Below, one piece after another: positions 9,422 through 56,179 of a stretch of 64,000 nucleotides of DNA (the first letter of the stretch is position 1; each line of letters begins with the position of its first letter). A program made the translations under genes and the position numbers. Source of the stretch: Filosporella fistucella (lineage: Eukaryota > Ascomycota > Leotiomycetes > Helotiales); the NCBI GenBank assembly GCA_030077755.1, contig JAQJZZ010000005.1, positions 1,922,001-1,986,000 on the forward strand. Direction: 5' to 3'. The notes below the pieces were generated by a model that worked only from the letters and a program-made list of their open reading frames with translations, made no database searches and was not told the DNA's origin.

Positions 9422-12400
9422 ATGGGGAGAATGCTCTTTGCATTTGTGCTTTGTCACCTGGTGTCTCTGATATGTGTTCAAGCAGTCAAGACAACTACTG
9501 TATACAATTGCGAAAGCACGTCAGCTTCATGTGCAAATTCAAGGCCGACCATTTCTTCTTCTTCATCAACTGAATTAGGAGGCATCTTTGCAGATGTAAT
9601 AACCCCATCTATTTCGATTCCGACGCCTACGTCCTTGACCACCAGTACCACTTCGTCCTTGACCCTCTCATCGTCAAGCAACACCATTTCGGTGACTTCC
9701 TCAACATCAACTCCCTGTAAGTCAATCTCAAAATATCGTCTACCTCTCTCTGATAGAATAAGCTGTTGTGACTGTCGACCAAACTGGAGGAGGCCAATTC
9801 ACGGCGATCAACGCTGCGATTTCTTACGCCCAATCGTATGCTCGACCGACAATCTTGGTGCGCGGAGGCACCTACAACGAAGCAATCAGCGTCTTGGGGG
9901 GATCCTCCGTTACGATTGTTGGAGAATCCGCAAATCCAGATGACTATTCCAAGAACCAAGTCTCAATCGTGTCAAATGCAGCCGGTACAATTCCCATGAG
10001 CATTAGCACAAATAGCGTGCAAGGAATTACGTGGAAGAACATAAATTTTATCACCAATGCAGTAGGAACTGCTGCCGTGGTATCACTACGTGGTGCAAAG
10101 AACGCCTTTTACAATTGCCAATTCGTTTCACAGGGCACAGCCGCCATCACATCAACTTTAGGAACGACTCTCATCGCGAATTCTTACATTGAGGGTACAG
10201 ACAAGTTGCTCTATGGATACCTGGGCATGTACATATTCAATTCAACAATTGCAGCTACTTCAAGCTCTTCGACCATCATCTACAGCCATGGTTATTCGAC
10301 ACCTACTCAATTCTCGCAGACCGTTCTCGATTCCTGCAATATCATGCAAAAACCCGGAACATCGAATTCCTACGTGTACTTTGCGGGACCCAATGGTGAC
10401 GGGGCACAAGCTGTTTTGAAGTACACAAAGATGGCAAGTTTGATAGCCCCAGCTGGTACGAGAGCATTGGGCACAAATGGATTTTACGGAGAATATGCCA
10501 CCACCGGGCTTGGTAGTTACGCATACGGTGTCAATCGAGTAGACACAAAGATGACTTCATCAATGCTTTCAAATTGTTCCATAGACTATGTCTTCGCCAA
10601 CTCCTTCACTGGGTATACCACACCAACATTGTCTTGGATTGACCCCACTGTCTTGAAAGCTATCTACGCGGCCAATATCGGAGACCAAGGCTTGAGCTTA
10701 TCAACATCATCCCTCACTTCAACCGAATCGCTTTCATACTCAAGCATTTCAGGCTCGTCGACCATTTCGTCACTGTCAGTCGCAAGCAGCACCGCAACAA
10801 TTCCAACAGTCATCTCCACTACATCTAGTGCCACTTCGATATCAGCATCCGCCACGTGTATCTTGCCCTCAAGTATTCCATCATCGGCCATCGTTGTGGG
10901 CCCAAGTTCTTCTTGCGCAAAGTATAACACTCTATCCTCTGCTATCGGGGCGTTGCCAGTTGACTCAACGATTCAACACATCTACATTTTAGCAGGCACA
11001 TACACTGAACAAATCCCATCTTTCAGTAGACTCGGACCAACTATTTTTCGAGGAGAATCGACTGATCCCTTGAAGCAGTCATTGAACAACGTGACAATAC
11101 AGTTTTCGGGGAGTGTCTTGAGCAGCGCTGGAGGGGCAGAATCTTACTCTGTATTTCGGTCTACTGCGTACAGCGCGAAGAAGTACGCATTTTACAACAT
11201 CAATTTCGTCAACATTGCCCCAATCTCACCAAATATGATTGCCATTGCAATGGATATCAAAGCGCAGCAAGTTGGATTTTATTCCTGTGGGTTTACTTCT
11301 GGTCAGGGAACTTTCCTTGCGAACTATGGAACATTCTTCTTGTCTGGCTGCCTTATCGAAGGATCTCAGGATTTCGTATGGGGTTATGGACAATTTTTCG
11401 TCAGCAATTCTAAAATAGTGTCAAATACCCCTGGATATTCGATCGCTGCGCAGAGCTGGGTATCGACTTACCCCTCTCAATTTGTTTTCGATCAATGCGC
11501 CTTCGTGCCCAAAACGATTAGCTCGATGAGTGCTTCTACCTACCTCGGACGGGATTATTCCACCTCTGCCAGGGTTGCTGTTACGAACTCCTTTTTGGAT
11601 GGCCACATAGCTCCAGCTGGATGGCTTGTGAAGTCCTCCCCCACCAATGTTACGTTCGTCGAGGCCAACAACACAGGCCCCGGGTATGTTCCAGGATTCA
11701 GAATATCCCAAGCTCAGGTATCGAATACTTCGACATCGTATTCTCTTGCGAGTATCTTTGGTGACGTGAGCTGGATTGATGCTGCAGCCGTCGTCCCTTT
11801 CACGGGATTTCCGGATTCTCTTTTTACCACTGCTTCCTCCACAGCGACGACTACCAGTTCAATGCCAAGTGCTTCTTCCACCTCAACGACTCTTCCAGCC
11901 TCGGCTACTTATATCGTAAGTAAGAATCCTAACGGTACTCAATACGGAACTGTAGAAAGTGCAATCTCCGCTTTACCAAACGACGGAGCAGAAAAGGTCA
12001 TCCTCATCTTGCCGGGGGTATATACGGAACAGATAAATGTCAATCGCACAGGAAAAGTCACACTTCGTGGTACCACCAGCTATGCGAATGATTATTCCCA
12101 GAACACTGTCACCATACAATATAGTTATGGAGTTTCGACAAGCGCGGGTCAAAACGAGCTTACGCCAGTCATCAATAGCAAGAAGAATGACGGAAGTGGT
12201 CTCGCACTCTATAACATTGATTTTGTGAACACTTTTATCCAGACGAGGAATTACGCTGCGCTTGCTGCAGACTTTTATGGGACAAACATGGCTGCTTACG
12301 GATGTTCGTTCATTGGCTTCCAAGATACCTTGTTGGCGAACCAAGGAACTCAATTATTCTCGAATTGCTACATCGAAGGCAGTGGTACGCATCCCCTCCA

Positions 12401-15400
12401 TATCTCCATTGACCTGATATCACCTACTGTGCTAATCTACCATAGTTGACTTCATCTGGGGTTTCTCTCGAGCATACTTTCATGGGTGTTATATCGCTGC
12501 CAATACAGCGGGAACCTCGATTGCGGCCCAAAGCCGAGCGAGCGCATCAGCACTTGGAGGATACATCTTTGACTCTTGTCTCGTAACATACACGAGGACT
12601 TATGGCTCATCATATGGACTTACTTACCTTGGTCGCCCATACTCCAATTTCTCGGTCGCTGTTTACAAAAATTCTTATCTTGACCAAAACATCAACGCAG
12701 CTGGCTGGAGTGTTTGGCAAACCTCCAACCCTCAAACCAGCAATGTGCTTTTCGGAGAGTACAACAATAGTGGACCTGGCAGCTGGCAAGCAGCCACAGC
12801 CCGTGCATCGTTTGCCACTAATCTCACCGCCACACAAGTTGCCGCCTACGAGCTTGGAACTTTCCTCGGGGGCACGTCTTGGATCGACATGTAAGAACCC
12901 CGTAAATATCCCATGCTGTCAATCAATCTAGGTTATCCGGAAGACACGCAATTTTGTATTGAAAAGGCTTTCGTTTATGTCAGCTAACTTATGATTTAAC
13001 GAATAGGGAGGCATATAATTTACCGAAGTCATTCGACTGGACATCAAGCGGAATCATTCTCAATGGCACTTTGACAAATACTACCACCCCAGTCGCTGCA
13101 GGAAATTCGACATCATTACATCCAACCAGTGGGACAGTGCCTCCCTCAGGAGCTGTCCTCGTATCGGTCGGGGCAGCTATCCCGAAATCATTCGCCAACT
13201 TGACATCTGCCCTAGCTTCGTTACCTGCTGATAGTACGTCCCAGGTCATTTTCATCTACCCTGGGACATATGCCGAGCAGGTATCAGTGAGTCGCGCTGG
13301 ATTTGTCACCATCATTGGATACCAAGATGGGAGTGTAGGTAGAAGTTATTCCGGGAACCAGGTTACCATATCGTACGCTCGTGGACTCTCTGTTGTGTCT
13401 CCAATTCCCGCTGGCCACACAGACGCGGAGACTGCAGTAATTTCAACAGCGTCCAGCAATGTCGCGTTTTACAATGTCAACTTCATCAACACAGAAAATC
13501 TTGACGGCGCGACCGCTTCTTATGTTACTCTAGCTGCTTCGGTTTATGGAAGCCAAATTGGATTTTATGGATGTTCGATGATCGGGTGGCAAGACACACT
13601 TTTGACAGGCAACCCATCTGGTTATGCTTATTACGAGAGCTCCTATATTGAAGGCGCAATTGATTTCATTTGGGGTAAGTCCTGTCTCTGCCTCATTCCA
13701 CGCTCGCGAGTCTCATAGCGAAGGGTGTTTAGATGGAAATACTAACGATCTTAGGCTACTCAATGTCATATTTCAAAGGCTGCACCGTGGGCGCCAAGAA
13801 GGCGAAATCAGCCATTACTGCTCAAAGCCGCGCGTCAGCAACAGCTATTGGAGGTTATGTCTTCGACCAGTGTCTCTTCACTGCTGCTTCCTCTGCTACT
13901 GTCGATCTCACAGATTTGGTCTACATCGGCCGTCCGTACTCAAAGTATGCCAAAGTGATCGTTAAGTATTCATATCTCGACAGCATTATCCAGCCAGCAG
14001 GTTGGAAAGCTTGGTCTGCGACCGACCCTCGACTTGACTCTGTCACCTTTGCCGAGTATCAAAATGAAGGGCCGGGAAACTGGGAAAATAATACCGCAGC
14101 CCGAGTCGCTTTTGGAAATGCTACGCTGCTCTCTTCGGATTCATACATGCTAAAAGATGTCATGCCGTCTACCTCCTGGATAGATATGACCTACTGGAAC
14201 TCCATCGTGACTCCCCAGCCTGTCAACACACCAGTTGCAGTCAATGCAGGAAACTCGACCACACCTCCCGCTGGCGCTTGCGTTGTCTCCAAGTCTCCAA
14301 TTGCTAACGTCACGACCTATTCCACGATTATGGGCTGCATAAATGCATTACCAACAGGTACCACAGTCGCAACGATATTTATCTACCCCGGGACATACAA
14401 CGAGCAGCTGACTTTCAACCGTTCTGGTGCGACTGTATTCCAGGGATATACAGAGTCGCCCGGTAACTACTCAGCTAATCAGGTCATCGTCACCAACTCC
14501 GCCGGAGTTGATACTCAAGGTGATCAGAGCAACTCGGACTCAGCAACATTATACTCACGTGGAAAGAATCTAAAATTGTACAATATCGACTTGATCAACA
14601 CTTTTGGTACAACGACTGATTATGCATCCCTCGGCTTCGCTATTGGCAACAATGGAAATGCTTCTTTCTATGGGTGCAAAGTTTTAGGGAACCAAGATAC
14701 GTTTGACGTGAATGCTGGTGAGTGCTTCTCTAATAACCCAAAACCACCTGCTGAACCTATTCAGGGGCGAGCATTTTTGCTTACAATTCGTACATTGAGG
14801 GCAACATTGACTTCATCTGGGGCTCAGGAAGTTTTTACTTTCTAGCATCAATAATTGCTCCCAACAAGGGAGGAATTTCAATCACCGCTGATAAGCGCGC
14901 AACAAACTCATCTATTGGAGGTATTGTGTTCGATCAATGCACTGTTACTCCCGCACCAGGCTCGTCTGTTGTAGCAGGCTCCGTCTCGCTTGGAAGACCG
15001 GTAAGCATTCCTCTCTCGCGCCACACTTTTGCTGTGCTGCTCTCATTTCGTCGCTAAAATAGAATGCTAATATGCGGCTTTATAGTGGAACGCAAATGCC
15101 CGAGTCGCATACATAAAGACATATCTAGACTCCTGTGTATCTGCAGCGGGGTGGTCAATTTGGTCGAAGAGCACCCCGAATACAGATGGTGTCTTCTTTG
15201 GGGAGTATCAAAATTCTGGACCAGGCTCCATCAGCTCTACGAGAGCTACCTTTTCGCATCAAATGACCGATTCGGAAGCTACGGCTTTCTTGATCTCAAA
15301 CTTCTTCTCCAGTACCTCGTGGATAGACTTCACAGCCTTGAGTATTCAACCATTCTCCGTTACACCCGAAGTTCCCACAGTCACTTTAACCTCGACCATA

Positions 15401-16969
15401 CTTCCAACTGGCAGTGTGCCAGTGATTTCTAGCACAATCTACTCTACTTATATCACGACTTTGCCGCTGCTAGTTCAGACTTTCACGAGGAATGTTACGG
15501 AAAAACAAACCACCACCCTCTTGACAACTGAAAGTGATGTCTACAAATACGAGACACAATTCTCGACTGAGACACAATTCTCAACCGTCATCCCCAATCC
15601 GAGGTCAACCACGGTTACCATTAATGAGGCTGTGTCTACGACTTTGACTATCCAAGGCCCCTCAGAAACCTCTACTGAACTAGTCACGTCGAAAATTACA
15701 GGCAGCACAGTCATCACTCCAGCACCGACCACAGTATTTTCGACTGTCCTTGTTTCCTACGTCTCCTTTCAGACGAGCACCCCGAAGACAGTTTCCAACC
15801 TCGTTACAATTATTTCGACTGAATCTTCTCTTATTCTATCGACACCAAAAGGGAAAACTACTACGTCTTTTACTACCGCGACCGTCTCCAGCTTAATCAC
15901 TGCTCAGACGCCAATCACAGAGATCAAAGTAACCACATCGCAAACTGTTACAAATTTGAAGACGATCACACCAAGGCCAGTTACCCAGACATTCGTCTCT
16001 TACACCACGATCCCTGCTGGACCAGCTGTGACAAGTATCGCGAAGAAATCGGTAACTTCTCTCATTTCAAGCACTTCTATTGTGTACAAGACAAGCAAGA
16101 CAACAACCACTTTGACGTGTCTGCCCTCGGCACTCAAGATCAAAGGACGGGCAGTGGATGGACATGAAGAGGTATTCAAGAGAGCAACGTCCTCGAGCAC
16201 TAATTCAATTTCAACTTCAACTGTGACTGTGTACTACACCATTCCACAGTCCACTAGCACGTTTTTAATATCCTCCATTACCTCATCGACCCTAACGGCC
16301 GCATCCTCAAAGTCAACACAGACCGATACTTTAATATCCTTGATCATCAAGTCTTCAACCATCAAAGGCCAGACTTACACCTCAACCATCGCATCCACAG
16401 TCGTCGTCCCCAAAACAATCACACTGCCAGTCTCTACAGCTACGTACACCGTTGATATTCAGGGTACATCCATCAAGACAACTTCCCTGAAAGGTACCAC
16501 ATCGATAGAAACCTCAATTCTATACTCTACTGTGAAAACAAAAACTTCCACTGCTCCAGCAATAACCATAAACGCCTTAACGACAAGCACAACCACCAAA
16601 CTATCCACCCTCACCCTCCCAACACCAACCGTCATCTCCACACTCACAACCACCAAAACAATCCTCTCAACATCCACTCTCCCTACCTCCACAAGCGTCA
16701 TCCTACGCTCTACAACATTGACACTGAAATCCACCACCACGCCTGCATTATCTACAAGCTATATATACAAAACTGTTCTTAGCACTGTGAGCCAAACAAT
16801 CAGTTTGCCTGGCTCTACAATAGTAGTCCAGAAAACTTCAACGCAGAAAGAGACGGCGGAGACAGTGTTGGTTACGAAGACAGTAACTAAGACAACGGTG
16901 CTGAAGAGTACGAGTACGGTTTGGAGTACGAAGACGGTTACGCCGAAGGGGGTGCAGACTTGTGCTTAG
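9422..16969 (+). CDS. Giant secreted five-domain pectinesterase (about 2370 aa)
   Basis: Seven exons: 9422-9716, 9763-12384, 12446-12890, 13007-13674, 13755-14717, 14765-15000, 15086-16969; phases all agree, giving 2370 residues. A signal peptide (MGRMLFAFVLCHLVSLICVQ) is followed by a Ser/Thr-rich linker and then five pectin methylesterase (CE8) domains at about residues 100-410, 460-780, 810-1130, 1170-1490 and 1515-1830, ending in a Thr/Ser-rich tail of about 530 residues. CE8 enzymes de-esterify pectin using two Asp and one Arg. Domain 3 has GFQDTLL, EGSVDFIWG, LGRPY; domain 4 GWQDTLL, EGAIDFIWG, IGRPY; domain 5 GNQDTF, EGNIDFIWG, LGRPW. Domain 2 keeps SQDFVWG and LGRDY but has GQGTF instead of QDT. 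Domain 1 has lost all three sites (SQGTAA, GTDKLLYG, YFAGP). Known CE8 proteins usually have one catalytic domain. Likely secreted and wall-associated, with three active and two non-catalytic modules. Confidence 0.9.
15390..16960 (+). repeat. Thr/Ser-rich low-complexity tail of the pectinesterase
   Basis: The last exon encodes more than 500 residues made mainly of T, S, V, I, K and P, with recurring short motifs such as TSTLPTSTS, TTKLSTLTL and STVxT, probably a heavily O-glycosylated stalk. A less repetitive island around 16120-16190 contains KIKGRAVDGHEEVFKRA; its KR pair is a possible Kex2 processing site. The C-terminus ends GVQTCA and has no hydrophobic GPI signal. Confidence 0.75.
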
Positions 16970-17555: not shown

Positions 17556-19837
17556 CTAAGGCAAACTCATAAACAAATCCATCATCTTTGGAAAATTCGG
17601 GGTCCCCAGCCCCGTAACCGGATCCCATCCAACCGTACTATTAAACCCCGGCGTTCCACACCCCTGATTGCCTCCATTCGTAACATCATTAAGCACCTGA
17701 GGATTAGCATACAAAACCGGATTCACGAATCCAATCGGTGCTTTCTTGACATTGATACGTTGCTCGTTAATCATGTTAAGTAAAGCAGCGAAAGTAGGAC
17801 AGCTAGCGCTCGTCCCGAACGCGAGGGAAAATTGTCCGTTCACGGCTGTCACGTAGTTGACTCCGTTGGCAGAGACGTCTGGAAACCCGCGGACTTTCTG
17901 AGAATTGTTGAAGCGGTCTGCGCCGTAGGAGGGAGCGTGTTGAGAGAAGTATGTTGCCATTGCTTTTTCTTGGTATGAGGGCATGGCGAAGACGTTGGAG
18001 AAACCGCCGCCGGAGAAAATGACGCGTTCTGATGCGCTTTCGGGAGAACGAACAGAGGACCCGTTTATTACTTGGGTTGCGCCCACTGAGGTGACGTATG
18101 GGCATGTTCCTGGGAAGGAAGGGTTGAAGATACCGGTTGAGCCGTTATTGTATGCACCTGTTACCGGATCTAGGTGAGTCAGTACAGTGTCCAACGAAAT
18201 GAAAAATGAGGCTTCCAGCTGCCGAGCAAGCTGATCATCTCGATCATCTATGGTGAATAGATAGCAAAATTCAACTTACTGATACACTGCCCACCATTTC
18301 CGGCAACCCCGAAATCTCCAGAAGAATAGAGAATAGAGACACCCTGAAGCCCAAGTTTCATGTACTCCAAACACTGTCTAGTCTCGTATTTGGCAGTCAA
18401 GTCCGCCTCATTGGATCCGTAACTTGTGGAAATCACGTTCGTGTATGAGAATCCTCCGCAATTTTGCTGACCAGTGAAACCTCCAGGTAATATGTCAGGA
18501 TACTGGCCATCGACATTGGGATCTTTTGAATCTCCGCCTTGGAATTGGCAATAGCTTCCATCAATTGCATCCAAGAAGTTGTTGAAACTAGCACCATTAA
18601 CCAAATCACCTACTTGGCTACAACGAATTAGCTCTGTGATTTGCCTTGTAAAAGTTGAGGAAAATCGTCCACGCTAGCAACGCTGGCGGACCGGCCCTAG
18701 AATTGACCCTCCCAGAACATTTTTACTAACATGAGCCGTATCTAAACGTGGCCTCCCAAAGCTGTTCGTGTGACTGGGCGCACCAAGAAGAGAAAAGAGA
18801 AAGGTTACATACTAGAGTGTGACTTGCTGGGGGTAGACGAGGGCCATCGCAAATTCGAGATCCAAAGCTGATTCTCCATTGAAGTTGAAACTCTGATTTT
18901 TGGTCTGAACAGATGCTCCATCAATCAAATTAATATTTGGTCCCACACCATCCAACGGAGGGGCAAATTGCTTGAAATACATGTTGAGATCCGATTGCAA
19001 AAAGGCCTGCGGGGTGTATTCTACCACACCAAGGGTATTATTCTTCATGGCCGTACTTCCAGGCGGAGCATTGTATAGCGCTTGCAAGCACTGTGGAGTG
19101 ATCATGGTATCACAATTTTGCAAACTCATCAAAGCGTTGAGAATCGTAGCACCTTGTTTAGGATTCGATTGGTCATTCGGGGAACCAAGTAGTCCATGTG
19201 GGTTCTCGAGGACTCGCTTGTTCAGTGCTCGAAGTGGTGCGGGTAGAAGGTCTTCATGGTGTAAGGTACGACGAGGTGTACCAATCTGTCGATCGAAATG
19301 AACGGTTGGCGTAACGATATCGATATGCTCCGATAAATGCGAAGGAATGCTGTACTCTGTACAAGCAACATGGTTGTGGCCTGTATCGTGCTTGTAGAGA
19401 TGGTACTCTGTCTGAAATAGCCTCTCCGCTTCCACTACAGTAGCATTGAAAGTTAACCAAGTCCTCGATTGTGTCATTTTCACCCTCCTGAGATCAATTC
19501 CTGAGCTTGACAACCATTCTCTAACAGCATCAATGCTCTCGGAACTTGGGGCGAATGTCTCGACGATTTTCTTGGGCGACCAGTGCTTTCCATAATCTGC
19601 AGACTCTGGATGTGCTACCTGATTGATGAACTCTTCTGCACGATGAAGGTTCTGCTGGGCTAAACCGATTCGAACGGGAAAGACAGCGGCTGGATGAAGA
19701 CGACTGTGTCTCTTCCAGTTAGAGGGAGGGTCTGCACGACGTTCATGAACCACATGCTTCGATTTCGTTGTTATTGGAGATGCAGATATCGCTACCGCCA
19801 GGGTAGCAAGTATCTGGAAAACGAGGTCGATCCGCAT
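17556..19837 (-). CDS. Secreted sedolisin (S53 serine-carboxyl peptidase, tripeptidyl-peptidase type)
   Basis: Three exons: 18813-19837, 18280-18617, 17556-18169; introns 195 and 110 bp, phases agree; 658 residues. The start at 19837 gives a signal peptide (MRIDLVFQILATLAVAISAS). An activation prodomain follows (about residues 30-210, with YGKHWSPKKIVETFAP), then a KR site before the catalytic part. Catalytic signatures are ESALDLEFAM (Glu and Asp), SSGDFGV (oxyanion Asp) and FGTSASCPTFAA (Ser nucleophile). The C-terminal GCGTPGFNSTVGWDPVTGLG belongs to the family's calcium-binding region. The length fits fungal tripeptidyl peptidases (about 600-660). It would remove tripeptides from proteins in acid surroundings outside the cell. 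It lies tail to tail with the pectinesterase. Confidence 0.93.
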
Positions 19838-20569
19838 ATTAACCTTCCCTCCGGATGCTAGGCACGAGCATCTGGCAACAAAAATATATGGTTGGGGATT
19901 TTGATATTTATTAAAAGCTTGGTACTTCGGCCGGTACCTCGTAAAATCCAAATCCTTGCTCTCCTCTACACTAGCCCATGAAGAGAGGCCTCTCAATGGT
20001 CCAGATGGACCAAAATACCAGCATATTTGAATCTACCAAATTGTGACGAGAGCAGAAGCACCCCACATGTTCTCACTGAAACCCGTCCGGGTTAGAATAA
20101 CCGCAAAATGCGACAACCGGAGACATTCAGTTCCATGAGATGTTGCTGTCAATCAATCAGAACTCGTCACCTAAGTGGATGAAGCTGCGCAGTGTTCTGT
20201 CCCTAAAACGGATCGGGTTTGTAAAAACCAGAGGGAAGCTATGCGATCTTTTTCACCCTGGCTAAACCCACCTATTCAAGCACGACTCGAGTTTCAGACA
20301 TTCAGGCAAGCTTTCGCTTCGCACGGATGCGTAGATCTTATGCGACAACTGGAGCCGCAGAGTCAGGTCAGGAATATACCGGTGCACAAAGCACCGGAAA
20401 AGTGCCAACATGTGCCAATTGAGCAGGTTCGATGACAAACTCCGATCTCATCACACAGTGCAATAAAGGAGAATAACTTTGAAAGTCCTGGAGGATGGAA
20501 TTGATTCAGTTCATTGGCATATGTAACACCAACTCGAAATTCAGTCGAATCTGAAACATGAAGCCCCAA
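19838..20569. other. Intergenic region
   Basis: About 730 bases between the 5' side of the sedolisin gene and the 3' end of IPI3. Short frames only (for example 20175-20435) without support. Presumably the sedolisin promoter. Confidence 0.45.
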
Positions 20570-54649: not shown

Positions 54650-56179
54650 ACCTTTCCAGAAAAAGAACTTCCAAAAGAGCCGGTCCACATTTATCATCTG
54701 TACTTGTGGGAGTACACACACCAAACAAAGGCCTCCAGTTCTTCGATATGGTGCAAGAGCTTCCGAGTCACCGCAATTTCCTGTCATAGGACAGCACTGT
54801 CTAAAAGTCCTCCCAAAGCAGGACGCCTGGGTAGAGGAAGCGGAGCCGCGTTTTCCATGAGTGCCTACAGGTGTACAGGTACCAAATATGGGCTTACACC
54901 CAGCAGCAAGACCACACATAGTCGAACGTCGCGCCACAATCCCCCCTAACAAAGCAATTTTGGCCGATGACTATAGGAATGGAGGTTAGTACTGCCATCT
55001 CCGGCAAGTACGTGGGTGCTTATGCGAGAGGCCAGATATCTCCAAGGCATGAAACTGCGGAAGAAAGAGGGATATGGAAAACCCTCAAACTCCGAGGAAA
55101 GCGCTCAATGACAAAGCTGACAAAATAGCCTGGGAATAATCTACTACTGCCAGAGCGAGTTGCTCGGTTAGCTGATGCTGTACCACACTTGCCATCAAGA
55201 CTTATCAGAGGAGGTTGGGTGCATGTAATCTTACCAAATGGGGCTTGACAGCCGTTGGGAATCCCACAGAAATCTACAACACTACCACAATCGCCTTTGA
55301 CTGAACAACAGTCACCAAAAGTGCTACCTGCACACGTAACCTGGATCGTTGAATCTGCTCCACATTTGCCATCAAGACTGATCGGAGGACACACTGTGCA
55401 TGTTCCGAATTCCTTCATGCAAGTGACTGGTGCACAGAACTCTGAAGTCCATCCGCATTTCCCAGACGTCGAACAGCAATTTCCAAATGTACTTGTAGCG
55501 TAAGTCGCCCTTTTTGGAGAGGAAGGACCTCAAAGTCCGACAATGCTGATTGGGGATGTTGCACTTGGAGTGGCTGCACTAGATGAAGTCTTCGAGGTCG
55601 GTATTGGTATTGTTGAGGAAATGTACTTGTGACTGGTAATACTCCCTCATAGACATTGATACATCCTTGTCCACCGCAAATCTGTGCAGAGTTACCAGCG
55701 CATGGCATATTGCAATCAGTCAAGTTTGCGGGTTCGTTTCCTACGTAACTCCCACACCAAAATTGCGACTTCGCTTCAAGACCAGCGGACATTATGCCAC
55801 TGAAATAACAAGCTTTTTCGCGCTTTTCGATTGTCGTCACGCTACCACCTCCTTCTATGGCTATCCGTACCGATAGAGTGGGCGGTTCAGAGGCAAGGTA
55901 GCAGCCAAGTAGGCTCCACTGAGGTATCGCAGTGCTCAAAGTAGTGATAAGTGAAGTGCTTGAAGTAGTGGGCCTGGTTGTGCTAGTGGGCGTACTCGTC
56001 GGTCTTCTGACTTCAACGCAATAAGATCGCTCCTTCTAGTTGTCGCAAGTCAAATTAAGAGAAGGATTCCAAAGCACCATATCTTCAATACTGACGCGAA
56101 AGGCATTTCTGATGTATTCACAGGTGAGTACTTCATAGTTGTCGTACCACCAAGTGCAATCCGTTGTTGGAGTACTGTC
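54650..56179 (-). pseudogene. Broken LysM - WSC - chitin-binding (ChtBD1) protein gene
   Basis: Modules readable on the minus strand: a LysM-like block (CTWWYDNYEVLTCEYIR, VLWNPSLNLTC) entered after a TTTTAG acceptor at 56180; a Thr-rich linker (RPTSTPTSTTRPTTSSTS); a WSC domain (WSLLGCYLASEPP ... NMPCAGNSAQICGG); and at least four ChtBD1 remnants (TFGNCCSTSGKCG, SLDGKCGADSTIQVTCAG, SLDGKCGTASANRATRSG, FRQCCPMTGNCG). Lesions: TAG at 56036-56038 between LysM and linker; two WSC cysteines replaced (EKREKACYF and KSQFWCGSY); a frame change after PVTSTF; a TGA near 55536; further breaks in repeats 3 and 4, where GKC reads GKR. The intact ancestor would be a secreted chitin-binding protein that may have shielded wall fragments. 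No functional protein can come from this copy. Confidence 0.75.

Follow-up and report, generated by a model that had tools for sequence, protein, structure and literature searches.

A gene of Filosporella fistucella predicted to encode a single protein with five tandem CE8-type modules

Does one fungal gene encode five pectinesterase (PME, family CE8) modules in a chain, or do several genes lie end to end, and what could such a chain do? The locus lies in a 64,000-nucleotide stretch of Filosporella fistucella DNA (assembly GCA_030077755.1, contig JAQJZZ010000005.1, positions 1,922,001 to 1,986,000), hereafter the window, to which all coordinates refer unless a locus is named. The source assembly consists of 19 contigs for a 45.8 Mb genome. 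A preliminary description of the window had proposed a spliced frame of seven exons on the + strand (9422-16969). This open model was reproduced and gives 2,370 residues behind the ATG at 9422 (about 249 kDa). Of 5,184 combinations of GT/AG sites tried, eight were open from this ATG to the stop, giving 2,368-2,373 amino acids. Introns 1, 3 and 6 were identical in all eight; introns 2, 4 and 5 varied by one to three codons. The introns are as follows:

Intron 1, 9717-9762, + strand: 46 nt, GT-AG, phase 1
Intron 2, 12385-12445, + strand: 61 nt, phase 1; the alternative donor 12382 removes one codon
Intron 3, 12891-13006, + strand: 116 nt, phase 2; its removal connects D3 with D4
Intron 4, 13675-13754, + strand: 80 nt, phase 1; the alternative donor 13684 adds three codons
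Intron 5, 14718-14764, + strand: 47 nt, phase 1; the alternative sites 14722/14771 remove one codon
Intron 6, 15001-15085, + strand: 85 nt, phase 0

The introns are canonical, and splicing of introns 2, 4, 5 and 6, all inside modules, restores conserved CE8 stretches. In the predicted protein, a signal-like N-terminus is followed by five consecutive CE8-type modules (D1-D5) joined by linkers and by a 544-residue basic Thr/Ser tail:

9422-9715, + strand: N-terminus, residues 1-98 (exon 1), with a signal-peptide-like start and a Ser/Thr-rich (43%) stretch
9716-10682, + strand: D1, residues 99-405, a diverged CE8 module, predicted inactive
10683-10868, + strand: linker 1-2, residues 406-467, 55% Ser/Thr
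10869-11792, + strand: D2, residues 468-775, a CE8 module, probably inactive or weak
11793-11900, + strand: linker 2-3, residues 776-811, 53% Ser/Thr
11901-13013, + strand: D3, residues 812-1123, a CE8 module holding introns 2 and 3
13014-13142, + strand: linker 3-4, residues 1124-1166, similar to linker 4-5
13143-14191, + strand: D4, residues 1167-1489, a CE8 module holding intron 4
14192-14263, + strand: linker 4-5, residues 1490-1513
14264-15334, + strand: D5, residues 1514-1826, a CE8 module holding introns 5 and 6
15335-16969, + strand: Thr/Ser tail, residues 1827-2370 and stop, assigned by composition

Modules D2, D3, D4 and D5 were recognized by the PF01095 profile with 74.7, 130.8, 127 and 120.4 bits, respectively (curated cut-off 27). 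D1 matched no Pfam family at E<=1 and so falls below the PF01095 cut-off; for this reason it is named CE8-derived and not a CE8 member by profile. Its best solved match in a sequence search was PDB 5C1C (E 4.6e-12). The predicted structure of D1 was a right-handed beta-helix, as in solved PMEs, in a model of middling quality (mean pLDDT 63.9, below 50 over residues 226-289) built from a seven-row alignment that included PMEs. Judged by this match and model, D1 is a diverged CE8 fold. The five tandem pectinesterase domains originally proposed were thus found as five modules in order, of which Pfam sees D2-D5 only and D1 is placed by its PDB match and fold.

Separate genes for D1-D5 are unlikely, because the frame from D1 into the middle of D3 has no stop and no start codon was found for D4-D5 alone. 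An 895-codon ORF (9762-12449) needs no splicing to take in D1, D2 and half of D3. Four ATGs lie in 12891-13143 as possible starts for D4-D5, each giving at most 24 codons unspliced, and the earliest ATG in the exon-4 frame (13578) lies within D4. A 370-codon ORF (13733-14845) connects part of D4 with part of D5. Two products could be made if intron 3 were retained: an in-frame TAA (12892-12894) would then end a D1-D3 protein at 1,121 amino acids after SWIDM, near the usual end of single-domain PMEs, and D4-D5 with the tail would belong to another gene or to a spliced isoform only. Two single-domain paralogue ORFs of the same genome likewise stop soon after SWVD (SWVDTSYM in L015, SWVDTTYLA in L019). 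We consider this arrangement improbable. The TAA is unsurprising, because a phase-2 GTAAG donor, if retained, always gives one in frame, and intron 3 has a GTAAGA donor, a CTAAC branch and a TAG acceptor. The lack of a usable ATG for D4-D5 also stands against it. Moreover, once intron 3 is spliced out, the sequences at the D3-D4 joint (SWIDM-EAYN...AGNST...PPSGAVLVS) and at the D4-D5 joint (SWIDM-TYWN...AGNST...PPAGACVVS) can be aligned, and the two linkers align with E 6e-6 in a single comparison.

The preliminary description had named assembly collapse as one of the cases that would speak against it. An assembly or collapse artefact fusing adjacent paralogues was found to have no support and is very improbable: the modules share 24-43% protein identity, the repeats within the gene (>=20 nt, ungapped) are just 20-38 nt long at 61-90% identity, and the 895-codon ORF spans the first modules in an assembly of few contigs. 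Collapse of near-identical paralogues is not credible given the same divergence, and no long DNA repeat was found in the gene. One polymeric CE8 protein, as predicted from the sequence, is well supported.

Four other ORFs or genes of the window, all on the - strand, were noted. A sedolisin-like protease gene (17556-20032) adjoins the CE8 gene and is convergent with it; its pro-kumamolisin activation domain matches PF09286 (E 5.9e-44), and the ORF next to it matches the subtilase family weakly. An ORF at 45104-46339 matches eukaryotic aspartyl proteases (PF00026, E 1e-46), an ORF at 55415-56035 has a WSC domain (PF01822, E 1.9e-10), and a 455-codon ORF at 155-1522 matches no Pfam family at E<=0.001.

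The two ends of the protein were examined by simple criteria. In a hydrophobicity count, only the N-terminal Met residues precede a strong hydrophobic stretch (10/12 after M1/M4; 8/12 for M590 in D2). The tail, put at about 530 residues in the preliminary description, is present and comprises 544 residues by composition, with 150 Thr, 84 Ser and 34 Lys and with 40 Lys/Arg against 19 Asp/Glu. It is basic (pI 9.8), whereas D3-D5 are acidic (pI 4.8-4.9). By eye, the hydrophobic C-terminal end of a GPI signal is absent from the tail, and a Lys-Arg pair at 2108-2109 offers a possible site of Kex2 cleavage. When exon 7 was searched against the own genome, five matches were obtained. One was exon 7 itself and the other four were CE8 stretches; among these four, one extends to query residue 129, about 45 residues into the tail. 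No separate relative of the tail was found in this search at E<=1e-3.

Catalytic residues were compared using the PemA numbering, with the triad D178/D199/R267 plus Gln177 (PMC10530356). In the part of that source available, the Asp-Asp-Arg triad is described as strictly conserved among the structures compared and Gln153 as a subsite -1 residue (PMC10530356). Two sets of single-domain enzymes were used. The own genome contains at least five other CE8 genes (L015, L016, L017, L018 and L019), each with PF01095 and a single module in the 3.5-5 kb read. The bacterial set consisted of the 80 loci of 8 kb (L020-L099) listed of 101 matching stretches; 71 of them contained 73 PME ORFs, and residues were counted in the 64 ORFs whose PME match spans >=230 residues. 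The bacterial search pattern requires GYQDT, and the bacterial Gln177 and Asp178 counts are therefore not independent. By alignment, the active-site residues of the modules are:

D1: Lys246 at the nucleophile, Gly307 at the Arg; general-acid Asp absent
D2: Gly614 in place of the general-acid Asp; Asp635 and Arg695 retained
D3: Gln952-Asp953, Asp974, Arg1036
D4: Gln1316-Asp1317, Asp1340, Arg1403
D5: Gln1657-Asp1658, Asp1680, Arg1742, with the usual LGRPW

D3, D4 and D5 keep the triad, as do 5C1C and the five own paralogues. D3-D5 retain Gln-Asp, Asp and Arg at 12/12 positions despite a mutual identity of 37-43%, which suggests selection for catalysis. In D1 none of the three triad residues is present; alignments disagree on G or T at D178, and on Gln177. 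D1 and D2 are probable pseudo-enzyme modules. The Gln153-equivalent (the Gln of QAVAL) is missing in all five modules (T/N/N/S/D in D1-D5, its exact partner depending on gap placement), whereas it is Gln in 5C1C, in four of the five own paralogues and in 60/64 bacterial PMEs. The single-domain PMEs that lack it are one own paralogue and four bacterial enzymes, three of the latter beside a nearby Gln, and we know of no activity for any of them. The Trp269 position (LGRPW Trp) holds N/Y/Y/Y/W in D1-D5. From these alignments, D3, D4 and D5 are probably active esterases, perhaps with altered subsites; even these modules may have little or no activity or a changed specificity, since the Gln153-equivalent is missing in all and Tyr replaces the LGRPW Trp in D3 and D4.

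Two of the paralogues deserve mention in their own right. L016 (G000:C16:1683000-1686500) is a very diverged single-domain CE8 paralogue on a long branch; it has Pro for the QAVAL Gln, absent here as in the five modules, and retains the Asp-Asp-Arg triad. L015 (G000:C16, L015 1984-3111) is a single-domain CE8 paralogue with a C-terminal SYM, which is reported as a non-canonical peroxisomal tripeptide in pectinesterases that are orthologous across Leotiomycetes, Sordariomycetes and Agaricomycetes (PMC12316961).

The origin of the modules was approached through a shared residue and a tree. The Trp of DF[IV]WG is common to D2-D5 and occurs in 0/64 bacterial PMEs (58 F, 6 Y) and in none of the five own paralogues (4 F, 1 Y). 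In a 19-row tree, which included 8 of the 64 bacterial rows, hand-picked, and in which D1 is a long branch, the five modules lie on one side of one branch (support 75/64, 80% of 200 bootstrap trees). The tree is weak; the best reading overall is an internal multiplication of one PME module. The multiplication would be old, because identity from module to module (24-43%) is about as low as that between the modules and the single-domain paralogues (19-39%).

The explanation that we regard as probable is one secreted five-module protein arising from this multiplication, in which D3-D5 are active, D1 and D2 are non-catalytic and the tail extends or anchors the protein. D3-D5 would most likely demethylesterify pectin through an Asp nucleophile, Asp acid and Arg mechanism. 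D1, and probably D2, would most likely be pectin-binding or spacing units. The basic and presumably O-glycosylated tail would lengthen the protein, could bind acidic pectin and may hold the protein to it or to the fungal wall. The initial proposal that five linked modules act repeatedly on one pectin chain is not supported: D1 is without the triad, D2 has Gly at the general acid and the QAVAL Gln is missing five times. In the available part of one study, fungal PMEs are described as not processive, and where PMEs are processive this is ascribed to the groove of a single module (PMC3913658). To act repeatedly along a chain, the protein would thus be predicted to need linkage and dead modules that hold the chain. 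A polyvalent patterning of pectin is a tentative possibility, in which the dead modules and the mucin-like tail dock on homogalacturonan and three linked non-processive esterases demethylate neighbouring stretches to give blocks. If true, these block-wise patterns would match those otherwise produced by processive plant or bacterial PMEs.

Long Thr/Ser tails occur in cell-wall proteins, and the tail found here resembles them. Together with the five missing Gln153-equivalents, the loss of the triad in D1 and its break in D2, this would fit a PME-derived wall or pectin adhesin, with polyvalent pectin binding and no module that is still an efficient esterase. We hold such an adhesin to be unlikely: the 12/12 catalytic positions kept by D3-D5 at about 40% identity point to selection for catalysis. 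The partly active secreted chain remains the reading preferred here. PMEs have mostly been studied as single modules, and a chain of five with two broken would be a natural test case for block-wise action by a fungal esterase that is not itself processive, brought about by linkage and by dead modules that bind. Such a chain would also exemplify pseudo-enzyme modules arising within one pectin-active enzyme. The interest of the layout would be less if it were common across fungal genomes.

How usual chained CE8 modules are was estimated from several samples. None of the 73 bacterial ORFs contains two complete modules, and four had one module in two pieces; many of these ORFs end at the edge of the 8-kb locus, where a further module would be missed. 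A second survey, of 198 genomes around G003, gave 87 matches in 44 genomes among the best candidates scored. Among these candidates, no open frame had two modules, and each of three pairs of matches covered two parts of a single module. Five genomes (G011, G037, G112, G170, G191) have two adjacent yet separate CE8 frames, which may correspond to the tandem in an unfused state. Conserved-peptide scans found 37 stretches fitting a pattern in genome_contigs and 46 in viral_contigs, with no confirmed relative in either. In the titles and abstract starts of the literature searched, no fungal protein with several CE8 domains was recognized, a weak negative. In the part available, one study examined 5,250 fungal pectinesterases, though its screen concerned C-terminal signals and not the number of domains (PMC12316961), and in the passages available from four others 'two CE8' refers to separate enzymes or genes and not to a pair of domains (PMC7679414, PMC7981871, PMC8398502, PMC7267012). 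The single-module norm stated here is that of the own genome and of the bacterial and surveyed genomes.

The preliminary description had taken one catalytic domain as the rule for CE8 proteins. The own genome and the bacterial ORFs agree with this, but four flax PMEs (LuPME8, 22, 51 and 97) are annotated with two PME domains (PMC4008260). By annotation alone, these are like the present protein in having more than one PME domain per predicted protein, but they have two and not five. The own single-domain paralogues resemble D3-D5 in their intact triad (5/5) and differ from D2-D5 in having F or Y instead of W in DF[IV]WG and, in 4/5, the QAVAL Gln. Escherichia coli YbhC (PDB 3GRH), a single-module bacterial lipoprotein, differs by its one module against five. 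Among solved structures, the Aspergillus niger PME (PDB 5C1C/5C1E, CE8/PF01095) matched best in the searches, which were made with D1 and D3; it shares the beta-helix with the modules and the Asp-Asp-Arg triad and QD with D3-D5, but it has a single module, both the QAVAL Gln and the LGRPW Trp, and a solved chain without such a tail.
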